In this document: one piece after another, positions 23,482 to 38,037 of the stretch | Numbering within the stretch: position 1 is the stretch's first letter | Layout of the letters: each line of letters begins with the position of its first letter | Assembly: GCF_900182555.1 (NCBI RefSeq) | Contig: NZ_FXTH01000012.1 | Coordinates: forward strand, 62,001 to 126,000 | Source: Fodinibius sediminis | Lineage (GTDB): Bacteria; Bacteroidota; Rhodothermia; Balneolales; Balneolaceae | DNA length: 64,000 nt | Direction of reading: 5' to 3' | Notes under the pieces: model-generated | What the model saw: only the letters and a program-made list of their open reading frames with translations | What the model was told of the DNA's origin: nothing | Database searches by the model: none | Made by a program: the position numbers and the translations under genes

Positions 23482-24510
23482 CTACTGCTCCGGGATCCGA
23501 TCTGAATCCTGGCGGTCCACCATCCAGAACGGGTAGCGATCGGCCGTGGCCGAGACTTCATCCAGGGCATCCAGCTCCTCGCTGCTGAGCGTGATATTCA
23601 CCGAACGGATATCCGACTCGAGCTGCTGCATGTTTTTGGCCCCGATGATGGTACTGGTGACGCCCGACTGCAAGCGAACCCACGCCAGCGCCACCTCGGC
23701 AACCGTGGCCCCATGCGTCTCGGCAATCTCCTCCATGACCTCCACAATATCATAGGCCTGTTCCTTGTCGATGGGCGGGAAATCAAAATCATCGCGCCGC
23801 GAACCGTCGCCGGCCCTGGGAGTGTCACGGGTATATTTTCCACTCAGAAACCCTCCGGCCAGCGGACTCCATGGCATGAATCCCAGCTGCTCGGACTGGC
23901 TCATCGGCAGCAGCGCATCTTCCACGTCGCGTCCCGACAGCGAATAAAAATACTGCATCGCCTTGAACGCGTGCCAGCCCTCCCGACGGGCGATGCCCTG
24001 CGCCTTCATCACCATCCAGGCCGGCCAGTTGCAGACACCGATATAGCGGACCTTGCCCGTCTCAACAATGTCGTTGAGGCTTCGCATAATCTCACGGGTG
24101 GAAGTCACCATATCCACCCCGTGCACGTACAGCAGGTCGATGTAGTCGAGCTGCAGCCGCTCAAGACTGTTGTCCACCGAGTTAAAGATATGAAAGCGCG
24201 AGAGTCCCCGGTTGTTGGGATCATCTCCCATGGTTCCCCGTACCTTGGTAGCTATGACCAGTTCCTGTCGGTTGAGTTCCAGGTTTTTGAGGCTGTTGCC
24301 CAGGATAGACTCGGACTGGCCGTACGAATAGATATTGGCCGTATCAATAAAATTAATACCCGCATCCACTGATTTCTTAATCAGTGCATCCGCTTCTTTC
24401 TGTTTCTGCTGGCCGATGGCTTCCCAGTACCCTTCTCCTCCGAAGGTCATCGTCCCAAAACAGAGTTCAGAAACCAGCAGTCCCGTATCGCCTAATAGAT
24501 TGTATTTCAT
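23482..24510 (-). CDS. Aldo/keto reductase
   Basis: This 342-residue NAD(P)H-dependent TIM-barrel oxidoreductase has the catalytic tetrad in FIDTANIYSYGQSE (Asp, Tyr), VIATKVRGT (Lys) and LLYVHGVDMV (His). The cofactor-binding C-terminal part includes GVTSTIIGAKNMQQLE. It resembles the YajO/general stress type of the family, but the substrate cannot be predicted. It converges with the Mut7-C gene and is transcribed away from repeat mosaic 2. Confidence 0.92.
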   Translation of the reverse strand: MKYNLLGDTGLLVSELCFGTMTFGGEGYWEAIGQQKQKEADALIKKSVDAGINFIDTANIYSYGQSESILGNSLKNLELNRQELVIATKVRGTMGDDPNNRGLSRFHIFNSVDNSLERLQLDYIDLLYVHGVDMVTSTREIMRSLNDIVETGKVRYIGVCNWPAWMVMKAQGIARREGWHAFKAMQYFYSLSGRDVEDALLPMSQSEQLGFMPWSPLAGGFLSGKYTRDTPRAGDGSRRDDFDFPPIDKEQAYDIVEVMEEIAETHGATVAEVALAWVRLQSGVTSTIIGAKNMQQLESDIRSVNITLSSEELDALDEVSATADRYPFWMVDRQDSDRIPEQ

Positions 24511-24785
24511 GATGAATAAGTTAATGAGTTAATGTCCGTTGTTGCTTCAATGCAACAGCAGCCCCCGGCACAGCATTCCGCTCCTCAACCTCTCCCCTGG
24601 TAAAACAGCTATTCTTCAAGACGGACCTTGTCCTATTCGTCAGAAAGTGATGACAACCCGCCTCAAGAAACATCCACGGCTGGGGGCATAGAGCCAAACA
24701 AAACCGAAGCGGCCCGCTGGAGATTGAGCCGGGGAGCCCGTAACGGGAGAAGTATACCATGTATAGAAAACAGAGCACGGCATAT

Positions 24786-24866
24786 GGGACATGCCTTTTT
24801 ATGTCCCTATAGGGATCAGCGGCTGTTCCCTCTAAGGATAAGACGTCCATCCCTACAGGGATATGA
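24786..24866. repeat. REP-like cluster of small palindromes
   Basis: GGGACAT at 24786-24792 pairs with ATGTCCC at 24801-24807. It is followed by the palindrome TCCCTATAGGGA and, 40 bases later, ATCCCTACAGGGAT. The layout resembles extragenic palindromic elements. Only this one cluster was seen in the window. Confidence 0.45.
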
Positions 24867-24936
24867 ATAACAGGTGCCCGCGGATAACTATCCTGTTGCC
24901 CTCTCCTTTAATTTAAACCCATCCTTTTTTATTTAA

Positions 24937-25164
24937 CCACTTTTGGATGGCCAAAAGTGGAGCAAAAACCACCGGCTGTTTGGGGTAAAATGACTCACTA
25001 CATTTTTTCCTAAAGAAAGAGTGCCCGAATAGTAGAAGATTTCTCACTTCACTGTGTTCCGTTCGAAATGACGGGGGTGCTGGATTGATGCGGGTAGCCT
25101 TACAAGGGCAACCATTTTTCACCTGCCCCCCATCGTCATCTCGACCGGCAGGGAGAGATCTTCT
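24937..25164 (+). repeat. AB composite repeat, copy 4 (internally deleted)
   Basis: The head hairpin CCACTTTTGG / CCAAAAGTGG is complete. ACCACCGGCTG then joins directly to TTTGGGG, so about 180 bases of the A part are missing, as expected from deletion between the two GGCTG sequences that bound them. The B part (25034-25164) is complete. Confidence 0.78.
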
Positions 25165-25898
25165 ATTCTCAAGGCTAAGTGCCCGAGTTGCAGAAGGCTT
25201 TCTTTCCAAGGCCCGATACGACGTTAATACGGCATGCAGGTAGCCTTATAAAAAAATACATCAGCTGATTCATTATCTGTTGCCCTCTCTTCTGATTAAT
25301 ATCATTTTTTATATAGCACCTTTTGAGTGGTCAAAAGGTGCGGAAAAACCACCGGCTGTACCTGCTTCGGCGCACGGGATCGCTTGCTGCGGAAATAAAT
25401 GAAGATGTTGTTTTTTCTATAACTTCAACGCACTTGTTGCTCTGGCCCGCTGACCGCCTTTACCACCAATTTCCCCATTTATTTCTTTTTCGCAGCTCCC
25501 GCTCCCTTTTCACGCCTCCCCAGCCAAGGCCGGCTGTCTGGGGAAACCCTGATCCATAACTTTTGATCTTAACGCAGGGTGCCCGCACAATAGAAGATTT
25601 CTCACTCCACTGTGTTCCATTCGAAATGACGGGGGTGCTGGATTGATACGAGTAGCCTTACAAGGGCAACCATTTTTTACCTGCCCCCGCATCGTCATCT
25701 CGACCGGCAGGGAGAGATCTTCTATTCGCAAGGCTAAGGGCCCGAGTTGCAGAAGGATTTCTTTCCAAGGCCCGATACGACGTTAATACGGCATGCAGGT
25801 AGCCTTATAAAAAAATACATCAGCTGATTCATTATCTGTTGCCCTCTCTTCTGATCAATATCATTTTTATATAGCACCTTTTGAGTGGTCAAAAGGTG
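25021..25898 (+). repeat. Direct duplication with 558-base period (B-C-A unit)
   Basis: The stretch 25021-25340 (B part, C segment, A head) is repeated at 25579-25898. The B arms (25034 and 25592), the C segments (25181 and 25739) and the A heads (25317 and 25875) are all offset by exactly 558 bases. C (CCCGAGTTGCAGAAGG to TATATAG) is seen only in this pair. Confidence 0.8.
25317..25723 (+). repeat. AB composite repeat, copy 5 (complete)
   Basis: The head is CACCTTTTGA / TCAAAAGGTG with a GTGG loop. The A part runs to 25543 and the B part is 25592-25723. It is part of the 558-base tandem duplication. Confidence 0.82.
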
Positions 25899-25911
25899 CG
25901 GAAAAACCACC
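25875..25911 (+). repeat. AB repeat head, truncated
   Basis: Only the head hairpin and AAAAACCACCGG remain. The sequence then changes to an unrelated segment (CCTTTTGGCTTGACC) that also follows the truncated head at 35701. Confidence 0.7.
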
Positions 25912-25967
25912 GGTGAAGTGGGAGATCCTTTTGGCTTGACCCAAAAGGATCTTAAAAACTCAAGAAG

Positions 25968-26062
25968 AATTTAACTCCTCGGTGCTGATGACTATCAGCA
26001 ACGCTGATAAAGATTGGCCGCCAGCCCCTCGTCAAACAGAAATTCTTCCGGTTGGGCTTGTA
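25968..26062 (+). repeat. F repeat, copy 2
   Basis: Second copy of the 95-base segment at 20632-20725, with the same TCCTCGGTGCTGATGACTAT core. Confidence 0.7.
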
Positions 26063-26229
26063 ACTTTCATTAAAAAACAATCTGGATTTAGTGACAAAGA
26101 TGGAATAACTCTTTCCACGCCTCACCAACTAAGGCCGGCTTTCTGAAGAAACCTTGATTCAAAACTTTCAACCTTTAAGATGCAACGTGCAACTAAACTA
26201 ACTTCAAATGGAGCTTACCCCTTTCATCA

Positions 26230-26590
26230 AAGAGTAACAACCCTCCGGCCTAACGAAAGGTGAGGGGCCCGTTTCGTCGTGGCGAGCGGGAGCGTAAAAA
26301 AATCATTTCCTGTCTGACGACCAGCGGGAGGAGTCAAATGATTTTAGCAACGAGAGCCGCAGCGGGGTGCCGAAGCTTTCTCAGCCGGCGACGTTTTTGG
26401 GTTCCGTTTTTGCGTCGTTCCAAAAATGGAACAAGAACATGCTCATTCAAAAAAGGAACAATGCTTTTCACGCCTCACCAGCCAAGGCCGGCAGTTTGGG
26501 GAAGCTTGCATCATGACCTTCAACATTCAACACATAACCTGCAACAGAACGAACTCCAGATGGGGCGTATCACTTTCATTAAGAAGTAAC
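26230..26590 (+). repeat. E and G repeat segments with an A-part tail
   Basis: It contains CCCTCCGGCCTAACGAAA (also at ~36091), the GACGTTTTTGGGTTCC...CCAAAAATGGAACAAGAACA segment (also at 36235-36335), the tail of the A part (26466-26502, CACGCCTCACCAGCCAAGGC), and a G segment (26507-26590, also at 20848-20935). Confidence 0.65.
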
Positions 26591-26651
26591 CAGGGGGTTT
26601 GGGAAGAAAGCCTTATTTCTAAATAAGGTAACAAACACCTTAACCGCGCCC

Positions 26652-27440
26652 TCACTTTAAGCTTTCGATAACCGTCCGGGTGTTCTTTTCCTCGAAGGTA
26701 CGGATCAGGCGGAGGACACCGGGAAGCAGAACGCCCGGGGGTGCAAGCACCGCCTTTGCGACCCGTTCTATCTGGGCATCCACATCGCGGATGATGTGTT
26801 CTTTCTCCTCTTCACCGGCATGCGCCAGGGTCACGGCCAGGTTCCACGCAAAATCCCGGGCCCTCCGAATGCTGAAGTTGACGACGGACTCATCATTTCG
26901 CTCCCCGATCCAGTCGAGCAGAAAAAGCAGGGGCGAGGACCGCCCTATCCATTCCTGCATCTCATCAATCAGCTCCTCAAGCAGGTCGTTCACAATCATA
27001 AAATCCTTTTTGAGCAGCTGGATCTGTCCGCCCGGGGCCGTCTCGGCCGCAGCCACTCCCAGGTCCAGGTTTATATGGGCATTCATGCCCAGGAGCAGAT
27101 GCTGCAAGATGATCGGCTTTCGCCCATCCGGCCCCTCGGCAGCCCGAAAAGCAATCTTCCATACAAAGGAAACCGGTTTGTCGTGGCGATAGCGCCAGAA
27201 GGCCTGAATATATTTCCGGGCAAAGCCGACGTCGAAACGCTCCATCCGCCGGGGATCCTCAAACACGCCTTCCGTAATTCCATCTGCTATCCTTGCCGTG
27301 GTTCGACGATATACAAAAGCGAAAATCGCCAGCGGACTGTCCTCTTCCACCGTCGTGCTGATGATATTGTCAAGCTCTTCGAGCACCCCGTCAATCGTAC
27401 TGATGTTGGTCATAAGCCCATAGAATATGTGGTATTTCAT
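26652..27440 (-). CDS. DUF5995 family protein
   Basis: This 262-residue all-helical soluble protein contains IILQHLLLGMNAHINLDLGVAAAE, a histidine-rich motif I associate with the DUF5995 family, and an N-terminal IFAFVYRRTTARIADGI segment. The start could be ATG 27440 or ATG 27413 (MTNISTIDGVLEELD); the second fits the domain slightly better. No signal peptide is visible. The function of the family is unknown; the conserved His/Asn residues could bind a metal, which is a guess. It stands alone between repeat mosaic 2 and the defence-like island. Confidence 0.78.
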   Translation of the reverse strand: MKYHIFYGLMTNISTIDGVLEELDNIISTTVEEDSPLAIFAFVYRRTTARIADGITEGVFEDPRRMERFDVGFARKYIQAFWRYRHDKPVSFVWKIAFRAAEGPDGRKPIILQHLLLGMNAHINLDLGVAAAETAPGGQIQLLKKDFMIVNDLLEELIDEMQEWIGRSSPLLFLLDWIGERNDESVVNFSIRRARDFAWNLAVTLAHAGEEEKEHIIRDVDAQIERVAKAVLAPPGVLLPGVLRLIRTFEEKNTRTVIESLK

Positions 27441-27837
27441 CTGTGTGCAAGTTGCAGGTATATACGGGGGAAGAAAGAAAGAGGCAAATAATCAGGGGAA
27501 CCCCGGCAGCAACCGGTAAGGGCTATGCCTTTTCTACTGTATTTAACCGGGGGATCTGTGAGGCCGGAAGTACCAACTGCTCTCTGTTCTTCACCTTACT
27601 ACTTTTGGTTACACAGCGGTACAAGCCAATATAAAAGTCTCCCGCCAGACTGCTGACAAGACAATTCCAGTCTGGGTCTGACTACGAGACGACCACTAAA
27701 CACCCCGTTTATCAATAGTAATGCAGCTATTGATAAGATAATCGCAGAATCAGCTCCTGATTTTTTGCTGAAAGAAAAGTATAATGGATTTTGGCTTCGG
27801 GACTGGACAACATCTACAGTAAAGGGTACAAACAGAC
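27441..27837. other. 397-base gap at left edge of the island, with a possible gene remnant
   Basis: No complete gene is seen. On the plus strand 27562-27681 is open for 40 codons and ends naturally at TGA with ...FGYTAVQANIKVSRQTADK then TIPVWV. It has no start codon and may be the decayed 3' end of a gene; I do not recognise it. A second open stretch without a start runs from about 27658 to 27850 in another frame. No tRNA gene that could mark an integration site was found. Confidence 0.35.
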
Positions 27838-28728
27838 ATGGACACGGATAAACAAATACGGCTAACCACATTCAGTTGGCTAACTGAACAGGTGGAGATG
27901 CATGGGGACGTGCTAAACCGCAACAAGTTAGCAAAGGGATTTTATTTTAAGGGCACAAGAATACCTTTGGTTTCCCCCCAAGGGATTTTTAAACCCAAAC
28001 AGCTGGATCTACCCCTCACTATTACTACCTCTCCCAAGGGACCTTATACCGACAGTTTTGATAAAAATGACTTTTTGCTCTACAAGTACCGGGGAACTGA
28101 CCCAATGCATCGAGATAATGTTGGGCTTCGACAATGTATGCAAAATGAAACACCCCTAATCTATTTCCACGGTATTGTACCCGGCAAGTACCTTGCCGTT
28201 TGGCCGGTCTATGTTATTGGGGACAACCCCGATGCCCTTACGTTTAGAGTTGCAGCAGACAACCAGTATGAAATAGATTCCGAAGGAAAGGCAGCTGAAG
28301 GCAGCCAATACAGGCGTGCCTACATTACTTCCACCGTAAAAAGACGTTTGCACCAACGCGGATTTCGTGAACGGGTAATGGCTGCCTACCAATCGCAATG
28401 TGCGTTTTGCCAGTTAAAGCATGTGGAACTGCTCGACGCTGCCCATATCATACCGGATAAAGATGAAGAATCTATCCCTTCTGTTAATAATGGCTTGGCT
28501 CTCTGCAAAATCCATCATGCCGCTTTCGACCAGCATATCATTGGGGTTTCCCCGGATTACGAGATTAAGGTGAAAGAGGATGTATTGCAAGAGAAGGATG
28601 GCCCGATGTTAAAGCACGGCATTCAAGAGTTGCAGGATCAGAAGTTGATATTGCCAAAATCTAAGAGTGCGTGGCCAAATCAGGAGTTTTTGGATGTCCG
28701 GTACCAGCGATTTAAGGATGTTGGCTGA
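27838..28728 (+). CDS. HNH endonuclease with a PUA/SRA-like N-terminal domain
   Basis: This 296-residue protein has a C-terminal HNH domain at ~190-250: CAFC, then LLDAAHIIPDKDEESIPSVN and NGLALCKIHHAAFD, with the metal-binding histidines intact. The N-terminal ~165 residues contain PYTDSF, YKYRGTDPMHRDNVGLRQ and PLIYFHGIVPGKYLAVWPVY. I recognise this arrangement from HNH proteins believed to be modification-dependent restriction enzymes, in which a PUA/SRA-like domain reads modified bases. That role is an inference. It is followed after 73 bases by an OLD-family nuclease on the same strand, which supports a defence context. Its base composition is closer to the chromosome than that of the next genes. 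Confidence 0.82.
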   Translation: MDTDKQIRLTTFSWLTEQVEMHGDVLNRNKLAKGFYFKGTRIPLVSPQGIFKPKQLDLPLTITTSPKGPYTDSFDKNDFLLYKYRGTDPMHRDNVGLRQCMQNETPLIYFHGIVPGKYLAVWPVYVIGDNPDALTFRVAADNQYEIDSEGKAAEGSQYRRAYITSTVKRRLHQRGFRERVMAAYQSQCAFCQLKHVELLDAAHIIPDKDEESIPSVNNGLALCKIHHAAFDQHIIGVSPDYEIKVKEDVLQEKDGPMLKHGIQELQDQKLILPKSKSAWPNQEFLDVRYQRFKDVG

Positions 28729-28801
28729 TTTGTATTGAGATTATCCCCTATGAATTGGATTCTGGGATGAAAACATTAAAAGCTAATTCTAAAATCACAA
28801 T

Positions 28802-30772
28802 ATGTATTTATCAAGACTCAGATTATGGAATTTTAGGAAGTATAGTATTCAAGAGGGAAATACCATTGAAAATAACAACCCCGGTTTAACGGTTGATTTT
28901 AAAGATGGACTGAATGTTTTAATTGGAGAAAATGATTCAGGCAAATCCACAATTATTGATGCCATCAAGCATGTTTTATTAACTCAAAGTCATGAGTATT
29001 TACGGTTTGATGAAAAAGATTTTCATTCAAATGGAGAAGGTCGCGCAGAGAACCTAAAAATCGAGTGTACTTTTGAGGGGTTTGAAGATAAGGAAGCAGC
29101 AAGTTTCTTAGAGTGGATTGGATTCGATGATGATGGCAATTATAAATTAAAAGTATGGCTGACTGCTAAAAGAAAAGATAATCGAATTATTACTGATGTC
29201 AGGGCTGGCCTTGATGAGGAGGGGGCCCAATTGGATGGTAATGCCAGAAACCTGTTAAGAGTTACGTATCTAAAACCATTGAGGGATGCTGAAGCAGAGT
29301 TGACACCTGGTTACAAGTCACGGTTTGCTCAGATACTTCGAGGTGATGATTTATTTATTAAAGCAAAGAATGCCGATGGAGAACTAGAAGAACATGTCTT
29401 AGAAACTTATGTAAACAAAGCTAATGAGTGGATAACAAATTATTTTGAAGAAAGTGAGATAGATGACCACGATGGTTTAGATATACCGGAGGATACACAA
29501 GGCGCAAGACACATAAAGGATACTATAACTAATTTTCTCAAGATATTTTATGAAGATGGGAAAGATGCTAATCCTTTCGTAGAAATTGCTGGGAGTGATT
29601 TACTAGATATCTTAAAAAAGTTATCACTTAACCTTGAAGAAAATAAATCAGGTCTTGGTTCACTGAATTTATTATTCATAGCTGCTGAATTAGTTCTATT
29701 GCAAAATGAAGAAGAACGAGGATTAAAACTGGCTTTAATTGAGGAGTTAGAAGCTCATTTACATCCTCAAGCACAATTGAGACTGATAAATTATTTGCAA
29801 CAAGAACAAAATGGCCGACAGTTCATAGTAACAACCCATAGTACCACTTTAGGGTCCAAAATTGATCTGAAAAATTTAATCATATGCCAATCTGATGACG
29901 TGTATCCGATGGATAGTCAATATACAGAACTTAATGAAAATGACTACGGGTTCTTGCAACGGTTTTTAGATGCTACAAAGGCCAATTTATTCTTTGCAAA
30001 AGGGGTTATAATCGTTGAGGGGGATGCAGAAAATCTTCTCATACCAACTATTGCTGAAGTAATTGATAGGCCACTTCATAAACACGGAGTCTCCATTGTA
30101 AATGTTGGCAGTAAGGCTTTGTTAAGGTATGCGAAGATCTTTAAAAGATTGGATGATAAAAAAATGAATATCCAGGTTTCAGTTATAACTGACCTTGATA
30201 TAGAACATAAAATTGGTGATGAGTCAAATGAAGTAATACCCAAAGAGGTAGCAAATTTTGATGAAGAGAAAGGATCAAGAGTTGACACACTAAAAGATAC
30301 CTTTAACTCAGAAGATGTAGTTCAGGTATTCCCATCTCCAAAGTGGACAATGGAATTTGATTTAGCTGAAGGGCAATTAGCACCCTATATAAATAGAGCC
30401 ATACATATTGCCCAGCTTGTGAAGAGTCGGGAAGGGTATGATGCACCGTTCAACCCTTTGAGTAAAGAGGATATCCGGCGGAAATGTGAAGACGCTAATA
30501 CCTATTTAGAACAAATCAGAGAGGAACAAGATGATGATTTATATGTTGCTTATAAAATTTATGAGAAATTGAAAAAACACCATGCTTCAAAGGCTGTAAC
30601 TGCTCAATATTTGTCAGACATATTTGTTAATGATCCAGAAAATGAAGAGACAGACGAAGATTATAAAACAGAAATAAAAGAGATCATCAGAGATGACGAA
30701 ACATTTTCATACTTACGAGATGCAATTTGCCATGTGACTAAACCCATGGGGGCTGAAAATGGAAATAACTGA
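28802..30772 (+). CDS. OLD-family ATP-dependent nuclease (GajA-like)
   Basis: This 656-residue protein combines an ABC-type ATPase with a TOPRIM nuclease. Walker A is GENDSGKST at residues 42-50. The signature-like segment KSGLGSLNLLFIAAELVLL and Walker B LALIEELEAHLHPQ lie near 290-325. The TOPRIM domain begins at ~400 with VIIVEGDAENLL and continues to TDLDIEHK near 463, so the acidic metal ligands are present. It overlaps by 14 bases the start of a UvrD-type helicase gene, the usual order of Gabija-like two-gene systems. The DNA is clearly AT-rich compared with flanking genes, which suggests horizontal transfer. Confidence 0.9.
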   Translation: MYLSRLRLWNFRKYSIQEGNTIENNNPGLTVDFKDGLNVLIGENDSGKSTIIDAIKHVLLTQSHEYLRFDEKDFHSNGEGRAENLKIECTFEGFEDKEAASFLEWIGFDDDGNYKLKVWLTAKRKDNRIITDVRAGLDEEGAQLDGNARNLLRVTYLKPLRDAEAELTPGYKSRFAQILRGDDLFIKAKNADGELEEHVLETYVNKANEWITNYFEESEIDDHDGLDIPEDTQGARHIKDTITNFLKIFYEDGKDANPFVEIAGSDLLDILKKLSLNLEENKSGLGSLNLLFIAAELVLLQNEEERGLKLALIEELEAHLHPQAQLRLINYLQQEQNGRQFIVTTHSTTLGSKIDLKNLIICQSDDVYPMDSQYTELNENDYGFLQRFLDATKANLFFAKGVIIVEGDAENLLIPTIAEVIDRPLHKHGVSIVNVGSKALLRYAKIFKRLDDKKMNIQVSVITDLDIEHKIGDESNEVIPKEVANFDEEKGSRVDTLKDTFNSEDVVQVFPSPKWTMEFDLAEGQLAPYINRAIHIAQLVKSREGYDAPFNPLSKEDIRRKCEDANTYLEQIREEQDDDLYVAYKIYEKLKKHHASKAVTAQYLSDIFVNDPENEETDEDYKTEIKEIIRDDETFSYLRDAICHVTKPMGAENGNN

Positions 30773-31635
30773 TGAGGCGATAGATAGAATAGGTGAGCTT
30801 TTATTACCAGAGGGAGCAACATTATAAGTATACAATAAAGACCTACTTTGAGTCATACAACCGAATAGCAAATATTAACAAGCCCACCTTACCTACAGTT
30901 AAATCTCATTTAAAAAAATATGATACCTCCAAGGCAAGTAAGTATTTTGAATCAATGATCAATTGTTTCTTACGAATTTTACAATTAGCTGATGTAAAGC
31001 GAGACACGGGAGACGGTACTCGTTCCTATACTAAGAATACTCTTCAAACCACTCTTAAAGAAGACAATGAGGATTTTTATTTAAATTTTCGAACAAATAT
31101 AACTAAGTGGATATCTGGAATTATTAACTCTACCGATAGTTACTCTGAAGAAGTATTAGAATCAGTAAGAGAATATATAAATGAGGAATTTCTACCATTC
31201 TTTGAAATAGAAGGAGATGATGAAGTACTCAGAGAATTTATAGATAGTAATTTCGTAGATGAAGGTTTTGATGAAGAAGAATTATTCGATAAGAATATAT
31301 TTAACCATTCATCTGATGATTTCTCACATATTGATGTAGAAGTTGGAACCGTACATTCAGTAAAAGGTGAAACTCATACAGCTACATTATACCTAGAGAC
31401 GGATTATTATGGTAGTAGAGAATCTGATAGAATCATGGATCAGCTAGTTGGAAACTTATATGATAATCCTGCTCAAGGTGAAGTTAGGATAAAGGAAACC
31501 TTGAAGATGGCTTATGTTGGTATGTCCAGACCTACTCATTTACTTTGCTTCGCGGGAAAAGAGGAAAACATTATGCCTAATAAAGAGGCCCTGGAAGACA
31601 ACTGTTGGGTAATTATTGAAGATTTAATTAATTGA
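30759..31635 (+). pseudogene. UvrD-like helicase (GajB-like), ATPase half deleted
   Basis: An ATG at 30759, overlapping the OLD gene, opens a normal-looking helicase N-terminus (MEITDEAIDRIGELLLPEGA) but stops at TAA 30825 after 22 codons. From about 30826 the sequence continues in another frame as the C-terminal part of an SF1 helicase: motif V-like VEVGTVHSVKGETHTATLY and motif VI-like KMAYVGMSRPTHLL, ending at 31635. Walker A, Walker B and the rest of domain 1A are absent, roughly 300 codons by comparison with family length. A downstream GTG at 30793 could still allow a 280-residue C-terminal fragment to be made. I read this as an out-of-frame internal deletion. Confidence 0.82.
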
Positions 31636-31668
31636 TCTCGAACTTAAAATAATACGATTCAGAGCGTC

Positions 31669-31905
31669 CGGGTGGTTCAGCCGCAGAGCAACTGAACAGA
31701 GATAAGTGTTTTTTTAAAAAAACGCCTGGTGCCCATGCTCCGCGCTACCCCCATTTACGCTCCACGTACCCTCCCTCTTCCTAATAACTAAAACCATCCC
31801 TACGCCAGGATATTCTCGTTACCCGAATCGGCCACAAAGACGCAGGCCGACTGTGTTTCCTCTACATAAGAACGGAGTTTATCCAGGTCCGGCTCTTCCG
31901 GCAGG
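31669..31905. repeat. Direct repeat flanking the transporter gene, downstream copy
   Basis: It covers the region after the transporter stop and its last ~35 codons. The same arrangement (AGAGCAACTGAACAGAGATA, CCCATGCTC, TTTACGCTCCACGTAC, then the coding end) recurs at 34178-34448 in the same orientation, with about 15-25% differences by eye. Confidence 0.75.
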
Positions 31906-34025
31906 CCAAGCAGATCCACATCCGCTTGCGGGGCATTTCGCATGACCGTTTCAAAGTTGCCAATCTCAACATGCGGAATCACATCGGGCAGCCGCGCAAC
32001 ATCCAGCAGGTTGTTCAGGTACTGATAGGCCTTTTCCACTTCCGGCTCCTCCACCACGGTGATGATGCGCATCCGGGCGTTCCAGTTTACCTTCAGCTTG
32101 TAGGCCGTCAGCATCGCCAGGTCCACGTTCCCGAGCTCCATACTCAGGTCCCACTCGGGACTCTGTTCATGGATCCACACGTTGACCGAAGCACTGCGGC
32201 CCAGCTGGGCAATGGTATCCTCCACATAGAGCTGGATCCCCATGTTGTTGAGCCGCGCCTGACGCATGATCGAAAGAATCTCTTCATCATAATGCTTGTG
32301 GGCGGGAAGCCGCAAAAACAGGATATTGGGCTTAAAAAACGTGCCCTGCAGCGTCTGCAGGGAATTGAGTACGGCATCCTCAAAATTAGTCGAATCAATG
32401 ACACTCCACTGGGCATAGATATTTTCTCGCTGGAATGATATGGCAAAATCCATCAGGGAATCCCGCAGCTCGCTGTCGTCATTCTGTCCCGACATGCCCA
32501 CCAGCTTTACCGATCCCTTGGGATACACCAGGTTCCTGATGAGGCTGAAATTACCGCGCAGTTCGCGCGAACTCCGGACGGGCACCAGCAGGTTGGCCTT
32601 CCAGGCGCGTTCGTTATTCTCCGGGAGGCTCGATATTCGCTTGGCCGCCCACTCGGCCAGCGACACAAAAAGACCGCTGCGCATATCACCGTAGGGCACT
32701 TCAAGTTTCCGGTTGGTCAGGTACAGGTAGGTAATGATCACAAAGCCGAGGGCAATAAGTCCAAAGGTGGAATTGATGATAAACATAGTAAACAGGCAGC
32801 CCACGGTCCCCAGCAGGGGTACGAATTTGGGGATCCGAAAGGTCGGGCGAAAACTGATCATATCCATCCGCTGCTCGATAAACACCACCAGGTTGATCAT
32901 CATGTAGGTAATCAGGAAGAACATGGTGATGAGCGGGGCGATGGTGTTCAGGTCCCGTACCAGCAGGGAAGCCAACACCAGTCCGCCGGTGAGTATAATG
33001 GCATTGCGTGGTTCGCCATTCTCGGCCAACTCCGAAAAGACATCTCCGCCGGGAAAAATTTTATGATCGCCCAGCGCCTGCAGAATTCGGGGCGCCCCCA
33101 CGATAGAAGCCAGCGCCGACGAGAACGTAGCCCCGAGCAGTCCGCCCAGCACGGCCGGCGCCCAGAGCGCATAATCGATCATCACGTTGTAATTGCTCAC
33201 CAGCTCATCCACGGGTGCCACCCGGGCCATCCAGTAGCCGGTAGACATATACACCAGGTAGCTGATGGCGATGGCCGACAGCGTACCTAGCGGAATACTC
33301 CTTTTTGGATTCTTGAGCTCGCCCGACATATTCGCCCCCGCCATAATACCGGTCGCCGCCGGAAAGAGAACAGCAAAGACAACCCAGAAGCTGACGCCCT
33401 GGAAATTATCCCCGGGTGCTCCCGGAAACGCTCCCCACCACTGGATGCTGTGTTCCATTGCCCCGGTAAATACGCTGGCTCCGACTGAAATGAGGGCCCC
33501 GATAATGACTGCCAGTATGATGTACTGGATGCGAAAAGCCAACCGGGCACTTAAATAGGCTACAATGAAGAGGATCCCAAAAACGACGATATCGACGATG
33601 ATGGCGTAATGGCCGGGAAAGATATAGAGCCATCCCTCCCGGAAACCGAAAATATACATGGTGATGGCAAAGGTCTGCGCCAGGTACAGCGGCACACCCA
33701 CGCTGCCGCCGACCTCCAGTCCCAGTGACTGCGATATAATGGAATATGCCCCGCCCGCCTTAATGCGGATATTCGTGGTTATACACGACATGGACAGCGC
33801 CGTAAACGTTACGATTACAAAGGCCAGGGTAATAATCAGCCAGCCGCCCAGGAGCCCGGCGTTCCCGATGACCCAGCCTTGACGCAGGAACAGGATCACC
33901 CCGAGGATGGTCAGCAGTGTCGGCACAAAGACGCCCCCAAAGGTCCCATACTTCTGCTGTATGGTGGAGGCATGATCTTCAACCTGTTCCTGGAGCGTGG
34001 ATTCTTCTGCAGCCTCTTTGTTCAT
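31800..34025 (-). CDS. SLC12-like cation-chloride / amino-acid permease
   Basis: This 741-residue membrane transporter has 12 hydrophobic segments in the first ~450 residues. Typical APC/SLC12 marks are VPTLLTILGVILFLRQGWVI (TM1), TNIRIKAGGAYSIISQSLGL, FPAATGIMAGANMSGELKNP (TM6 region) and ASIVGAPRILQALG. The ~270-residue cytosolic C-terminus with PVRSSRELRGNFSLIRNL and VKLVGMSGQNDDSE resembles SLC12 regulatory tails more than plain amino-acid permeases. The substrate, probably K+/Cl- or an amino acid, cannot be read directly. A decayed copy of the gene's 3' end lies upstream at 34343-34448. Confidence 0.9.
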   Translation of the reverse strand: MNKEAAEESTLQEQVEDHASTIQQKYGTFGGVFVPTLLTILGVILFLRQGWVIGNAGLLGGWLIITLAFVIVTFTALSMSCITTNIRIKAGGAYSIISQSLGLEVGGSVGVPLYLAQTFAITMYIFGFREGWLYIFPGHYAIIVDIVVFGILFIVAYLSARLAFRIQYIILAVIIGALISVGASVFTGAMEHSIQWWGAFPGAPGDNFQGVSFWVVFAVLFPAATGIMAGANMSGELKNPKRSIPLGTLSAIAISYLVYMSTGYWMARVAPVDELVSNYNVMIDYALWAPAVLGGLLGATFSSALASIVGAPRILQALGDHKIFPGGDVFSELAENGEPRNAIILTGGLVLASLLVRDLNTIAPLITMFFLITYMMINLVVFIEQRMDMISFRPTFRIPKFVPLLGTVGCLFTMFIINSTFGLIALGFVIITYLYLTNRKLEVPYGDMRSGLFVSLAEWAAKRISSLPENNERAWKANLLVPVRSSRELRGNFSLIRNLVYPKGSVKLVGMSGQNDDSELRDSLMDFAISFQRENIYAQWSVIDSTNFEDAVLNSLQTLQGTFFKPNILFLRLPAHKHYDEEILSIMRQARLNNMGIQLYVEDTIAQLGRSASVNVWIHEQSPEWDLSMELGNVDLAMLTAYKLKVNWNARMRIITVVEEPEVEKAYQYLNNLLDVARLPDVIPHVEIGNFETVMRNAPQADVDLLGLPEEPDLDKLRSYVEETQSACVFVADSGNENILA

Positions 34026-34520
34026 ATTTCTCCCTTTAGTTAATGACAGCTTGAAATTACCATCACACTATAACCAAACTAAGAAATCCGGTTCAATCAG
34101 CAAATTTGTTTGCTTAGGCGGGAATAGGACTTCGTATGGTTATATCCAGGGATAATATATGAGGATGATCAGGTTAAAAGATCGAGCATCGCTATGCGAA
34201 ACGTAGAGCAATTGAACGGAGATAGGAGTGGTATCTAAGTGAAACTATTACTTGGTACCCATGCTCTGCGTTGGTATCCAATTTACGCTCCACGTACACT
34301 CCCGCCTCCTAATCTACTAAAAACCAATAACTACAACCCTCCCTGCGCCAGGATATTCTCGTTGCCCGAATCAGCCAGAAAGACGCAGGCCGGCTCTGTT
34401 TCCTCTACATAAGAACGGAGCTTATACAAATCCGGTTCTTCCCCCAGTTGTTAAGTGTTTTAAAAACAATTATAATTTATTCTTGTTTTTATATCGTCAA
34501 CCATCACTCATCCCGCAACC
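34026..34520. other. 495-base gap upstream of the transporter
   Basis: The first ~60 bases presumably hold the transporter promoter (CCAAACTAAG near 34074 is one base short of a CAAAnnTA box). 34178-34448 is a direct repeat of the transporter's downstream region. The rest before the GH43 gene is AT-rich and holds TATTCTTG at about 34470, a one-mismatch TAnnTTTG box that may drive that gene. Confidence 0.5.
34343..34448 (-). pseudogene. Remnant of a second transporter gene copy (last ~35 codons)
   Basis: Read on the minus strand it encodes EEPDLYKLRSYVEETEPACV then FLADSGNENILA, against EEPDLDKLRSYVEETQSACV then FVADSGNENILA at the end of the intact gene. The stop codon is lost (TAG changed to CAG). 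Together with the similar non-coding sequence at 34178-34342 this indicates a former tandem duplication of the transporter gene, with almost all of one copy deleted. Confidence 0.8.
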
Positions 34521-35582
34521 ATGCGACTGCTTAACCATCATCTCCGGTTTCTTTTTGTGATCTGCTTCTTTGTCCAGGGCCTTGCCGCATCCGAAATGGC
34601 CCGGGCACAGGCATCCGCCACTCCCTCTTACAGCAACCCCCTCATTTTGCAGCGCGCCGATCCCTGGGTCTACCGGCATACGGACGGCTACTATTATTTT
34701 ACAGCAACTGTACCAGAATACGACCGCCTGGAGATTCGCCGGGCCAGGACTATCGAGGGACTCAGGGAAGCCGAACCGGAGGTCATCTGGCGCAAGCATG
34801 AGAAAGGTCCCATGGGCTCGCATATCTGGGCACCTGAGCTGCACTACATCGACGGCAAATGGTACCTTTATTTTGCCGCCGGGGGCGCAGAGGATGTCTG
34901 GGCTATACGGATGTATGTACTGGAGAATGATTCCGAAAACCCGCTGACAGGCCACTGGGAAGAGAAGGGGCAGACCAGGACCCGGTGGGAAACCTTTTCG
35001 CTGGATGCCACAACCTTCGAACACCGAGACACCCGCTATATGGTATGGGCCCAGCACCCGCCGGAGATGGAGGGCAACACGGCGCTGTACATCGCCGAGA
35101 TGGACACGCCCTGGAGCATCGTCCAGCCGCAGGTAGAGCTAAGCCGACCTGACTACGACTGGGAGAAACAACTCTTTAAGGTTAACGAGGGGGCAGCGGT
35201 GATCAAAAAAGACGGCCGTATCTTCATGACCTATTCGGCCAGCGGTACCAACCATCACTATGCGATGGGTCTACTGAGCGCAGATGCCGATGCCGACCTG
35301 CTGGACCCCGCCAGCTGGAAAAAATCACCGGAGCCGGTATTTTCAAGCTCCGACGAAAACGGTATTTACGGGCCGGGGCACAACAGTTTTACCACTACCC
35401 CGGACGGCGAGACGGACCTGATGTTCTACCACGCCCGCAGCTACAGGGAGATCGAAGGTGATCCCCTCAGCGATCCCAACCGGCATACCCGTGTTCAGGT
35501 CCTGCGCTGGTCGGATGAGGGCGAACCGATCTTCGGCGTCCCCCGTCCGGATAATACTATCGTGGATCCGGGAATGCGTTAA
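34521..35582 (+). CDS. Secreted glycoside hydrolase family 43
   Basis: This 353-residue enzyme has a signal peptide (residues 1-30, VICFFVQGLAASEMARAQA). The five-bladed propeller of GH43 is recognisable: base Asp in LQRADPWVYRHTDGYYYFTA, the APEL loop in GSHIWAPELHYIDGKWYLY, and the acid Glu in KVNEGAAVIKKDGRIFMTYS. These residues are conserved, so it should be active, probably on arabinose- or xylose-containing glycans outside the cytoplasm. No polysaccharide-utilisation genes (SusC/SusD) are near; it is isolated between the transporter remnant and repeat mosaic 3. Confidence 0.92.
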   Translation: MRLLNHHLRFLFVICFFVQGLAASEMARAQASATPSYSNPLILQRADPWVYRHTDGYYYFTATVPEYDRLEIRRARTIEGLREAEPEVIWRKHEKGPMGSHIWAPELHYIDGKWYLYFAAGGAEDVWAIRMYVLENDSENPLTGHWEEKGQTRTRWETFSLDATTFEHRDTRYMVWAQHPPEMEGNTALYIAEMDTPWSIVQPQVELSRPDYDWEKQLFKVNEGAAVIKKDGRIFMTYSASGTNHHYAMGLLSADADADLLDPASWKKSPEPVFSSSDENGIYGPGHNSFTTTPDGETDLMFYHARSYREIEGDPLSDPNRHTRVQVLRWSDEGEPIFGVPRPDNTIVDPGMR

Positions 35583-35700
35583 TATTGAGACCGCAATAGA
35601 AGGTTGGCTGCATTTCTATGTTTTTTTGAAAAAAAATGAACAGGCAGCGAGCCTCTCCTTTGCCCTGATTTCTAATCGAAATCAATTCCTTTTTTACATA

Positions 35701-35738
35701 CCACTTTTGGATGGCCAAAAGTGGAGCAGAAACCACTG
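35701..35738 (+). repeat. AB repeat head, truncated
   Basis: It has the head hairpin CCACTTTTGG / CCAAAAGTGG followed by AGCAGAAACCACTG, then TTTTGGCTTGACCC as after the truncated head at 25875. The same break point in two truncated copies suggests they descend from one deleted copy. Confidence 0.7.
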
Positions 35739-36234
35739 ATGAAGGAACGCCTTTTGGCTTGACCCTTCCGAATGCTCGGAACCAGCAAGCTGGGCTCGTA
35801 AAAGCTCAAGAAGAATTTAACTTTATATTGTTGGTTGTAATTCTAAAAAGGTTTTATAGTCCATTTTTTGTCACCAAACCCCGTACAAGCCGGGGCCAGC
35901 AAGCTGGGACGAAAAAAGTGTTGGGGAAGAGCAAGATGTTGTGATAGTTAAAGCTTTTCGGGCAGTAATTGCTCTTCCACATAAGTACTTATGCTACATA
36001 ATGTTTCCCGGCTCTTCCCCAAACCCCTGGTTACTCCTTATTGAACGTGATAAGTTTCATCTGGAGAAAGTCGTTTCATTTAGGAAGCCCCCCTCCGGCC
36101 TAACGAAAAGTCAGCGCTTTGGGTGGCGGATACGAGGCGGAGGAAAAAGAAATATATATCTGAGGAGCCCTGCGATGAGTTTATATTTTTCGCCGTAGAC
36201 GATGCAGCAGCCAAGCGATGAGTTTTCTCAGCCG

Positions 36235-36335
36235 GCGACGTTTTTGGGTTCCCCAGCTTTGCTGGTCCCGCGCCTGCGGGATGCGTCGTTCCAAAAATGG
36301 AACAAGAACATGTTCATTCAAAAAAGGAACATCCC
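36235..36335 (+). repeat. E repeat, copy 2
   Basis: GGCGACGTTTTTGGGTTCC...CGTCGTTCCAAAAATGG and AACATGTTCATTCAAAAAAG match 26385-26460. This copy has an extra 30 bases (CCAGCTTTGCTGGTCCCGCG...). Confidence 0.65.
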
Positions 36336-36404
36336 TTTGGTGACAAAAAATGGACGAGTGTATAGCATTATTTCTAACTAAGAGACTAAATGCCTTAACT
36401 ACAT

Positions 36405-36602
36405 AGCCGGCTGTTTAGGGGAACCTTTGATTCATTCCCTTTTGCTCTCAAGGCCGAGTGTCCGGACAATAGAAGATTTCTCACTCCACTGCGTTTCGTT
36501 CGAAATGACGAGGGTGCTGAAATGATGCGGATACCCTTTTATTAGATGGCCTCCCTTTACCTACCCCACCCCGTCATCTCGACCGGCAGGGAGAGATCTT
36601 CT
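36405..36602 (+). repeat. AB composite repeat, 3' portion with full B part
   Basis: It starts at the A-part end (AGCCGGCTGTTTAGGGG), then has the conserved spacer and B arms at 36471-36510 and 36572-36602. It is the sixth B part in the window; all six are in the same orientation. Confidence 0.8.
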
Positions 36603-36619
36603 ATTTTAAGGCTGAGTGC

Positions 36620-36735
36620 CCAAATAAGTAGGAAATTTCTTGCCAGGGCTTGAAATGAACTGTGTTTAAAATCAACCAACTGACACTTTTTTCGCCCCGG
36701 CTTGTACGGGGTTTTGCGATAAAAGATGGACAAGA
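36620..36735 (+). repeat. D repeat, copy 3 (shortened)
   Basis: It shares CAAATAAGTAGGAAATTTCT, GGCTTGAAATGAACTGTGTT and CCCCGGCTTGTACGGGGTTT with the other D copies but ends early, near 36735. Confidence 0.7.
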
Positions 36736-36885
36736 GTATGGCATTATTCTGAAATAAGGAAACTAACGTCTTAACCACTGAGGCCGGATGTTTGGGGAAG
36801 CTTGCACCACGACCTTCAATCTTTAACACTCAACCTGCAACAAAGCTTTATCTGTTCAGGGCGCCGGAGCTGCTAAACCACCCGT

Positions 36886-38037
36886 TCAATCCTCCCCGTT
36901 ACCTACCTGGGCGGGATAGGACCCCAATATTTTCAGGGAGCTGGCTTTCTGTTCCAGCTCCTCAAGAGCCAGGCGCGTGTCGGGCTCGGCGATATTGCCT
37001 TCAATATCCAGGTAAAACTGGTATTTCCACGGCTCATTGGGCTTGGGACGCGATTCCAGCTTAGTCATCAGGATATCGTGTTCGTCTATCACATTCAGGC
37101 AGCTGACCAACGCTCCCTTGTCGTGCGAGGTAACCATCAGCAGGGAGGTCTTGCAGGGAATTTGCAGGTCTACCTCCACGGGTTTGGTGCTTACAATGAC
37201 AAAACGGGTAAAATTCTCGGGCTGGTTCGCCAGATCCCGCTTCAGGATCTTCAGGTCATAAATATCGGCGGCATGGGCGCCTGCGATGGCTGCCTGCGAT
37301 AGGTCGCCGTCTTCCAGCACCTTCTTGGCCGACATGGCCGTGTCGATATAGGATTCCACCTTGCAGCGGTGCTGCGTAGCCAGAAAATTGCTGCACTGGG
37401 CAATGGCCTGCGGGTGCGACAGGATACGGCGAATCCGGTCCAGGGGCACTTCTTCGATAGCCAGCAGGCAGTGGATGATGCGCAGCGCTTCTTCTCCGAC
37501 GATATGAAGCTTACCATCACCCAGGATGTCATAGGTATCGCTGATGGAACCGGCCGTGGTATTTTCAATAGGCAGGATGGCATAATCCACTTCCCCTTCC
37601 TCTACGGCCTCGGCCGCCTGTCGAAAAGTGTCGTAGCCGACGGTCTGCACTTCCGTATACCGCTCTTCAAAATGACGGGCCGCTGCCTGGTCACTGTAGG
37701 CGCCTTCCGTCCCCTGGTAGGCTACCCGCACATGTTGGGCGTCGTTTTTGACGTTCTGGTGATCCACCAGGGTATGGGTCTGGAAACGGACCGAATGATC
37801 AATAATATCCTTGAAAAGCTGTTCGGCAAAATAGCGGTCCAGCCCCGCTTCCCGGGCAAGTTTCGTAATCTTGTCGAGCAGTTTCTCCTCGCGCTGGAAA
37901 TCCCGGATCTTTTTCTTCTCATCAATTTTAAAAGAAGAAACCTCACGAACCAGCTGCTGGCGTTTGGCCAGGGCATCAATAATTTCTTTGTCGGTCTCGT
38001 CGAGTAGCTTGCGTATTTGATCTAATTTATCGGCCAT
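36886..38037 (-). CDS. pheA: Bifunctional chorismate mutase / prephenate dehydratase
   Basis: It converts chorismate via prephenate to phenylpyruvate in phenylalanine synthesis. I start it at ATG 38037 (MADKLDQIRKLLDETDKEII, 383 residues); ATG 38055 is six codons upstream. Residues 1-90 are an AroQ-type chorismate mutase. Residues ~105-285 are prephenate dehydratase (AYQGTEGAYSDQAAARHF, PIENTTAGSISDTYDIL, and NFTRFVIVST with the catalytic Thr-Arg-Phe). Residues ~295-370 are an ACT domain that keeps the ESRP motif (MTKLESRPKP), so feedback inhibition by phenylalanine is likely. The gene is preceded by a small palindrome at 38066. Confidence 0.95.
   Translation of the reverse strand: MADKLDQIRKLLDETDKEIIDALAKRQQLVREVSSFKIDEKKKIRDFQREEKLLDKITKLAREAGLDRYFAEQLFKDIIDHSVRFQTHTLVDHQNVKNDAQHVRVAYQGTEGAYSDQAAARHFEERYTEVQTVGYDTFRQAAEAVEEGEVDYAILPIENTTAGSISDTYDILGDGKLHIVGEEALRIIHCLLAIEEVPLDRIRRILSHPQAIAQCSNFLATQHRCKVESYIDTAMSAKKVLEDGDLSQAAIAGAHAADIYDLKILKRDLANQPENFTRFVIVSTKPVEVDLQIPCKTSLLMVTSHDKGALVSCLNVIDEHDILMTKLESRPKPNEPWKYQFYLDIEGNIAEPDTRLALEELEQKASSLKILGSYPAQVGNGED

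Follow-up and report, generated by a model that had tools for sequence, protein, structure and literature searches.

The closest described counterparts of the locus considered here are the Gabija systems, two-gene anti-phage modules of common occurrence, in which GajA, a protein with an ABC ATPase and a TOPRIM domain, is encoded beside GajB, a UvrD-like protein with Walker A and DExQD motifs. In Bacillus cereus, both genes are essential in vivo and GajA alone cleaves DNA in vitro; the main GajA-GajB contacts lie in the 1B domain of GajB, with 1A placed beside the GajA ATPase domain, and mutating the interface breaks up the complex, with a marked drop in defence (PMC10781630). A second study, again as far as its accessible sections go, divides GajB into the domains 1A (residues 1-72 and 157-223), 1B (73-156), 2A (224-305 and 417-494) and 2B (306-416), and finds GajA to be bound by GajB 1-223 and not by a C-terminal region printed as 224-416 (PMC10822852). 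For Pseudomonas aeruginosa, a preprint available in part describes a need for both genes and for the ATPase/DExx sites of GajB (PMC12407980). Accounts of how GajB affects the nuclease differ, with GajA cleavage unaffected by GajB in the consulted portion of one study (PMC10681800) and, in another, a GajAB complex that is choosier about its substrate and more sensitive to nucleotide than GajA alone (PMC10822852). OLD proteins also occur without such a partner: class 1 OLD genes are solitary, single-gene systems (PMC10568477, excerpted text), and Escherichia coli YbjD, a single-gene OLD, is credited in the available text with anti-phage phenotypes on induced expression, for which its ATPase domain is essential and its TOPRIM domain dispensable (PMC13261556).

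We analysed a 64,000-nt stretch of the Fodinibius sediminis genome (GCF_900182555.1, contig NZ_FXTH01000012.1, positions 62,001-126,000), hereinafter the window, in whose coordinates all features are given. It contains an apparently intact gajA gene (28802..30772, + strand) coding for a class 2 OLD nuclease of 656 aa, which matches the PADLOC GajA profile over nearly its whole length (PDLC00080; protein 1-647, profile 1-620 of 622, E=2e-218) and carries the Pfam domains AAA_15 (ABC ATPase; 1-348) and OLD-like_TOPRIM (397-466). An AF2 model (pLDDT 87.0, pTM 0.83) recovered B. cereus GajA as the top solved structure (8x5i_D; Z 21.4, rmsd 4.4, 445 aligned residues, 20% identity) and the Thermus scotoductus OLD protein as another fold match (6p74; Z 19.6). 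The profile, domain and fold matches together make it a GajA with both expected domains, as full-length as that of B. cereus VD045 (8sm3, 8jqb, 8x5i); the two are distant, the solved GajA chains being only 18-21% identical to the window's protein, and the closest of the GajAs found reaches 51% identity. Four residues, K48, E406, D464 and D466, are invariant across the 32 sequences of the GajA alignment; judged by motif, K48 would be the Walker A lysine, and E406, D464 and D466 would correspond to E379, D432 and D434 of B. cereus GajA as given in the available text (PMC10781630). The GajA structure alignment (A4) took in 31 of the 43 listed GajAs, and the alignment of the GajB C-terminus (A3) 31 of the 45 listed. 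Like the class 1 OLD protein of T. scotoductus, the window's GajA combines ATPase and TOPRIM in one protein and has no functioning helicase to pair with; unlike it, it best matches GajA profiles and directly precedes a broken gajB, whereas class 1 genes have no UvrD/Rep-like helicase gene alongside.

The gene order is that of Gabija, with gajB directly 3' of gajA. Its ATG (30759) lies inside gajA, and the 14-base overlap (30759-30772), like the intact 656-residue ATPase-TOPRIM gene, had been called to the base in the original prediction, as both the ORF and the PADLOC results bear out. The same holds for the break that follows. The gajB frame yields a 5' stub (30759..30827, + strand) of 22 codons that can be aligned to the start of full-length GajB proteins, closes at a TAA (30825-30827) and runs into many stops beyond it, and the coding sequence resumes in the +1 frame as a 3' remnant (30826..31635, + strand) whose 269 codons cover the end of the first part of 2A, 2B, the second part of 2A and motifs V/VI. 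Formally, the remnant ORF is open from a GTG at 30793, 20 bases past the gajA stop (30793-31635, 280 aa); its next in-frame start, ATG 30955, would give 226 aa. The 280-aa fragment matches only positions 403-662 of the 663 in the PADLOC GajB profile (PDLC00146; E=1.9e-59) and positions 381-636 of the 641 in a custom GajB profile built from 25 relatives. A scan against Pfam returned no helicase family at E<=1, and a PDB sequence search nothing at E<=0.1. The remnant frame has no stops, whereas the two alternative forward frames contain 41 and 22, and when the 807 bases of the remnant were shuffled singly 2000 times, no forward frame stayed open in any of the shuffles; the shuffle test and the decisive profile matches rule out a chance ORF.

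Alignment to full-length helicases, which had been suggested as the way to map the deletion, did so: the match falls into two pieces, and between the stub and residue 12 of the fragment 350-395 residues are absent relative to the nine closest full GajBs, whose gajB frames are 634-708 long from stop to stop. The stub ends just upstream of a conserved FD, and the fragment starts downstream of motif IV, which places the deletion junction, with its +1 frame shift, at approximately 30822..30829 (+ strand). In the usual motif nomenclature, this alignment shows motifs I, Ia, II, III and IV lost and V and VI kept. The claim that the helicase had lost its ATPase half therefore stands as regards motifs I-IV but understates the loss: roughly 1.05-1.2 kb are gone, a stretch that encoded the ATPase motifs, the whole of 1A and 1B and the beginning of domain 2A. 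Compared with the B. cereus system, the window's GajB is thus a frame-shifted C-terminus that possesses neither the Walker A and DExQD motifs of a Gabija partner nor the full series of motifs I-VI of a GajB/SF1A helicase. A structural model of the fragment (pLDDT 87.8, pTM 0.70) aligned to residues 288-494 of GajB (8iud) at a weak score (Z 3.5, rmsd 4.0, 93 aligned residues; VIA-align) and as weakly to 8sm3_B (Z 3.3), and corresponded to about residues 353-652 of UvrD/PcrA; a Foldseek search with it gave no match at E<=0.001. The placement of the fragment on B. cereus GajB 288-494 is accordingly a tentative one, which agrees with the order of the motifs and also leans on it.

If the short helicase were a form conserved in one frame across many genomes, the reading of this locus as a broken system would fail. 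We looked for such a form in 92 genomes of the family, 392 of the phylum and 86 GajA-anchored loci, and it was absent. GajA (E<=1e-30) and the GajB C-terminus (E<=0.001) were each detected in 3 of the 92 family genomes, and GajA (E<=1e-60) and the GajB C-terminus (E<=1e-8) each in 7 of the 392 phylum genomes, these counts including the window's own genome; all six other phylum matches of the fragment belong to open gajB frames of 660-767 codons. A GajA-anchored contig scan with a single protein query found no relative, and a profile search with a GajA alignment (A1) had no match at 1e-20 and was rerun at 0.001. The 86 loci comprise the best 80 of at least 483 relatives from the scan with A1 and six loci from the phylum genomes, a set biased towards the GajAs nearest to that of the window, in which rarer forms could be missed. 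Counting gajB as full when a single ORF starts at profile position 30 or before and ends at 560 or beyond, we obtained one full ORF in 78 of these 86 loci, with G-x-G-K-[TS] and DExQD present in all 78. The gene is interrupted in five (L023, L085, L088, L090 and L093), among which the ORFs of L085, L088 and L093 stop 104-230 bases short of the contig end, which leaves the remainder of the gene unreadable; in two (L061, L074) the locus boundary truncates it, and L098 has just 273 bases beyond a partial GajA match and stops before gajB. The deletion seen in the window occurs in none of the 86, which speaks against a short helicase conserved as such.

Two of the interrupted loci resemble the window in having gajB broken 3' of gajA. 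In a Thalassospira MAG (L090, 2638-4705), gajB is spread over two frames, the protein continuing in the second after a gap of about 40 profile positions, and in L023 the contig ends ahead of the C-terminus, whereas in the window more than half of the protein is deleted. Two loci were left out of the GajA list on account of an in-frame stop within the match: in a Saprospiraceae MAG (L038, 6001-7551) gajA has a stop at residue 199 of 517 and gajB is one full ORF, which may be either the converse case, with the nuclease broken and the helicase intact, or a sequence error; in L027 the gajA stop comes only close to the end (627 of 636). We recognised no gajB with a truncation like that of the window in the portions of the literature searched, and the available parts of PMC13304284, PMC13335696, PMC12322248 and PMC11514479 hold nothing on such an allele. 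Broken defence genes as such are already known, since systems with a pseudogene are omitted from homologue counts in the accessible text of PMC12322248.

The age of the lesion was approached through a relative-rate test on loci with a GajB of more than 600 aa and a GajA match of more than 490 aa (75 taxa, the window included; L017 was not added). Identity between the remnant and other GajBs is not below that predicted from GajA: the mean residual is +0.021, the 69th of 75 when counted upwards from the lowest, a result that may be flattered by the window's fragment having joined a finished alignment. Taken together, the open 269-codon frame, the intact motifs V/VI and the normal divergence indicate either that the deletion is recent or that the remnant is still constrained, since a piece long free of constraint should have diverged faster; the published binding data favour the former, and the gajB deletion is probably recent.

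We hold it to be very probable that the locus is a recently inactivated Gabija system whose nuclease is intact yet has lost its partner, and that it occupies a variable restriction/defence site. On this account, a GajA-GajB operon would have been acquired as a low-GC module between a DUF5995 and a permease gene, and a later deletion of the size given above, probably a recent one, would have taken most of gajB, leaving the intact GajA frame and the frame-shifted 2A/2B remnant. GajA would probably still be tetrameric and could cut DNA. The GajAB complex should not form without the 1A and 1B domains of GajB, because the published GajA interface lies in these deleted domains, and without the complex the system would most likely provide no phage defence and would be drifting. 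The original prediction had offered a dead system as one of its possibilities, and this is now well supported: the GajA-binding and ATPase parts are gone, a second gajB was not found in the assembly, and both genes were needed for defence in the two published studies (PMC10781630, PMC12407980). The further suggestion made there, that a selective loss might disarm toxicity or regulation, would be a conjecture on which the present evidence is neutral. We infer that the homologue behaves like published Gabija, that a single, recent deletion event was involved and that the operon is non-working; the interface and the two-gene requirement of the B. cereus and P. aeruginosa systems would be carried over to the window by analogy. 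Several observations pull the other way: with a frame still open and a divergence in the normal range, the remnant might yet be translated and used, the match of the fragment to GajB is weak, and the literature concerns distant homologues.

An alternative is a derived Gabija whose GajA functions independently of the ATPase half of GajB, either alone or regulated by a re-initiated 2A/2B fragment. Such a derivative, to which we give a small chance, would be a natural allele with the nuclease activity uncoupled from the helicase partner. Its first version, in which GajA is a working stand-alone nuclease after the manner of class 1 OLD proteins and the loss of gajB was tolerated or favoured, we regard as unlikely. 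The intact gajA would fit selection for a solo nuclease, as would its invariant ATPase and TOPRIM residues and its confident GajA-like model, and the cleavage of DNA in vitro by B. cereus GajA alone (PMC10781630), the existence of single-gene OLDs (PMC10568477) and the reported anti-phage phenotypes of YbjD (PMC13261556) speak for it as well. A recent deletion would, however, likewise leave the gajA ORF intact, the nearest GajA found is too distant for dN/dS, and the published in vivo defence, in the parts of the reports at hand, needed both genes (PMC10781630, PMC12407980). The earlier suggestion that the nuclease might work alone finds precedent in DNA cutting by GajA alone in vitro and in the phenotypes reported for a single-gene OLD, but runs against the published defence tests of Gabija.

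The second version, whose pairing of the nuclease with the 280-residue fragment was also raised in the original prediction, is a pared-down Gabija: GajA would be regulated by the 2A/2B half, present as the 280- or 226-residue remnant. We consider this very improbable. The short distance from the gajA stop to GTG 30793 would permit re-initiation, motifs V/VI are intact, the divergence of the remnant is not raised, and the fragment is modelled at pLDDT 87.8 and pTM 0.70. The construct found not to bind GajA was printed as 224-416, so that GajB 417-494 is not clearly covered by it in the available text (PMC10822852). Against this, the GajA interface falls in the deleted 1A/1B domains (PMC10781630), the fragment corresponds approximately to residues 288-494, and no binding to GajA was seen for the tested C-terminal region (PMC10822852), to which the greater part of the fragment belongs; moreover, the combination recurs in none of the 86 loci, drawn as described from the best 80 of at least 483 relatives and six phylum genomes.

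That the true genome carries a full gajB whose missing ~1.1 kb was collapsed in assembly is possible in principle, the allele resting on a single assembly of 50 contigs, but it is extremely improbable given that the missing half is on no contig when a full relative GajB is the query, that completeness is 97.92 and contamination 0.64, that the junction sits within a contig of 173,878 bases, and that a repeat search of 24000-37500 listed none of at least 20 bases at this point. In the same assembly, the C-terminal fragment as query matched only itself, and the full relative GajB matched the fragment and, marginally, a 69-residue segment (E=0.002) of a 756-aa frame elsewhere. A single-base sequencing error that created the TAA, the other way in which the locus might have been misread, cannot explain an allele from which more than 1 kb is missing.

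The operon is most likely a non-working, broken copy and not a novel type of defence: an unusual snapshot of an ordinary mechanism, it illustrates the decay of a two-gene system with the partner broken and the nuclease frame open. That the nuclease frame stays open beside a broken partner suggests that this host suffers no strong toxicity from an orphan GajA. GajA-only hits in genome surveys may count dead systems. Were the orphan GajA to protect, it would bear on whether OLD proteins alone can drive broad anti-phage defence, a matter touched on in the available part of PMC10568477.

The operon differs in composition from its surroundings, its GC content being 0.356 for gajA and 0.327 for the remnant, whereas the two genes on either side have 0.55 and the value is 0.459 for an HNH endonuclease gene (27838..28728, + strand) that lies 73 bp upstream of gajA and is a neighbour rather than a part of Gabija. 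Homologues of this HNH gene at about 75% DNA identity occur in two relatives in the genus (G018 and G017), the copy in G018 beside DUF5995 without Gabija. Of the flanking genes, the permease (E<=1e-100) is present in 12 of 12 genus genomes and DUF5995 (E<=1e-30) in 6 of 12, the window's own included, and the two lie near each other on one contig in four other genomes. What stands between them varies. In G015 (L128) their ORFs are 924 bp apart, with no ORF above 97 aa in between; the gap in G018 (L129) is occupied by the HNH homologue, which is 75% identical at the DNA level along 864 bases, together with three further ORFs of at least 100 aa, and that genome gave no GajA match at E<=1e-30. In G019 (L130) the gap contains AAA_5, McrBC-family, HNH and Fic proteins, among others, the first two of which would make up an McrBC pair. 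G012 (L131) has a longer insert, in which the two genes scanned, a PD40/peptidase-like and an ABC-ATPase gene, are not clear defence genes. With its contents differing among these four genomes, the interval from DUF5995 to the permease (27441-31799 in the window) looks, from gene content, like a variable site able to hold restriction genes. Searches of mobile elements gave no match at E<=1e-30 in annotated phages, five weak matches in viral contigs, and ten plasmid records at E<=1e-50, all below 60% identity.

The neighbourhood also contains repeats. An interspersed intergenic repeat family is found at 24896-26600 and 35660-36842 of the window, in pieces of 24-195 bp that are 61-100% alike; one piece of 195 bp has 12 matches in the genome, six of them on the window's contig. 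Separately, a stretch made up of the 3' end of the permease gene and the flank downstream of it has a second copy (88-89%) upstream of that gene (31750-31904 and 34278-34447), and G017 carries a similar piece of 141 bases (77%) about 0.9 kb past the end of its permease gene.
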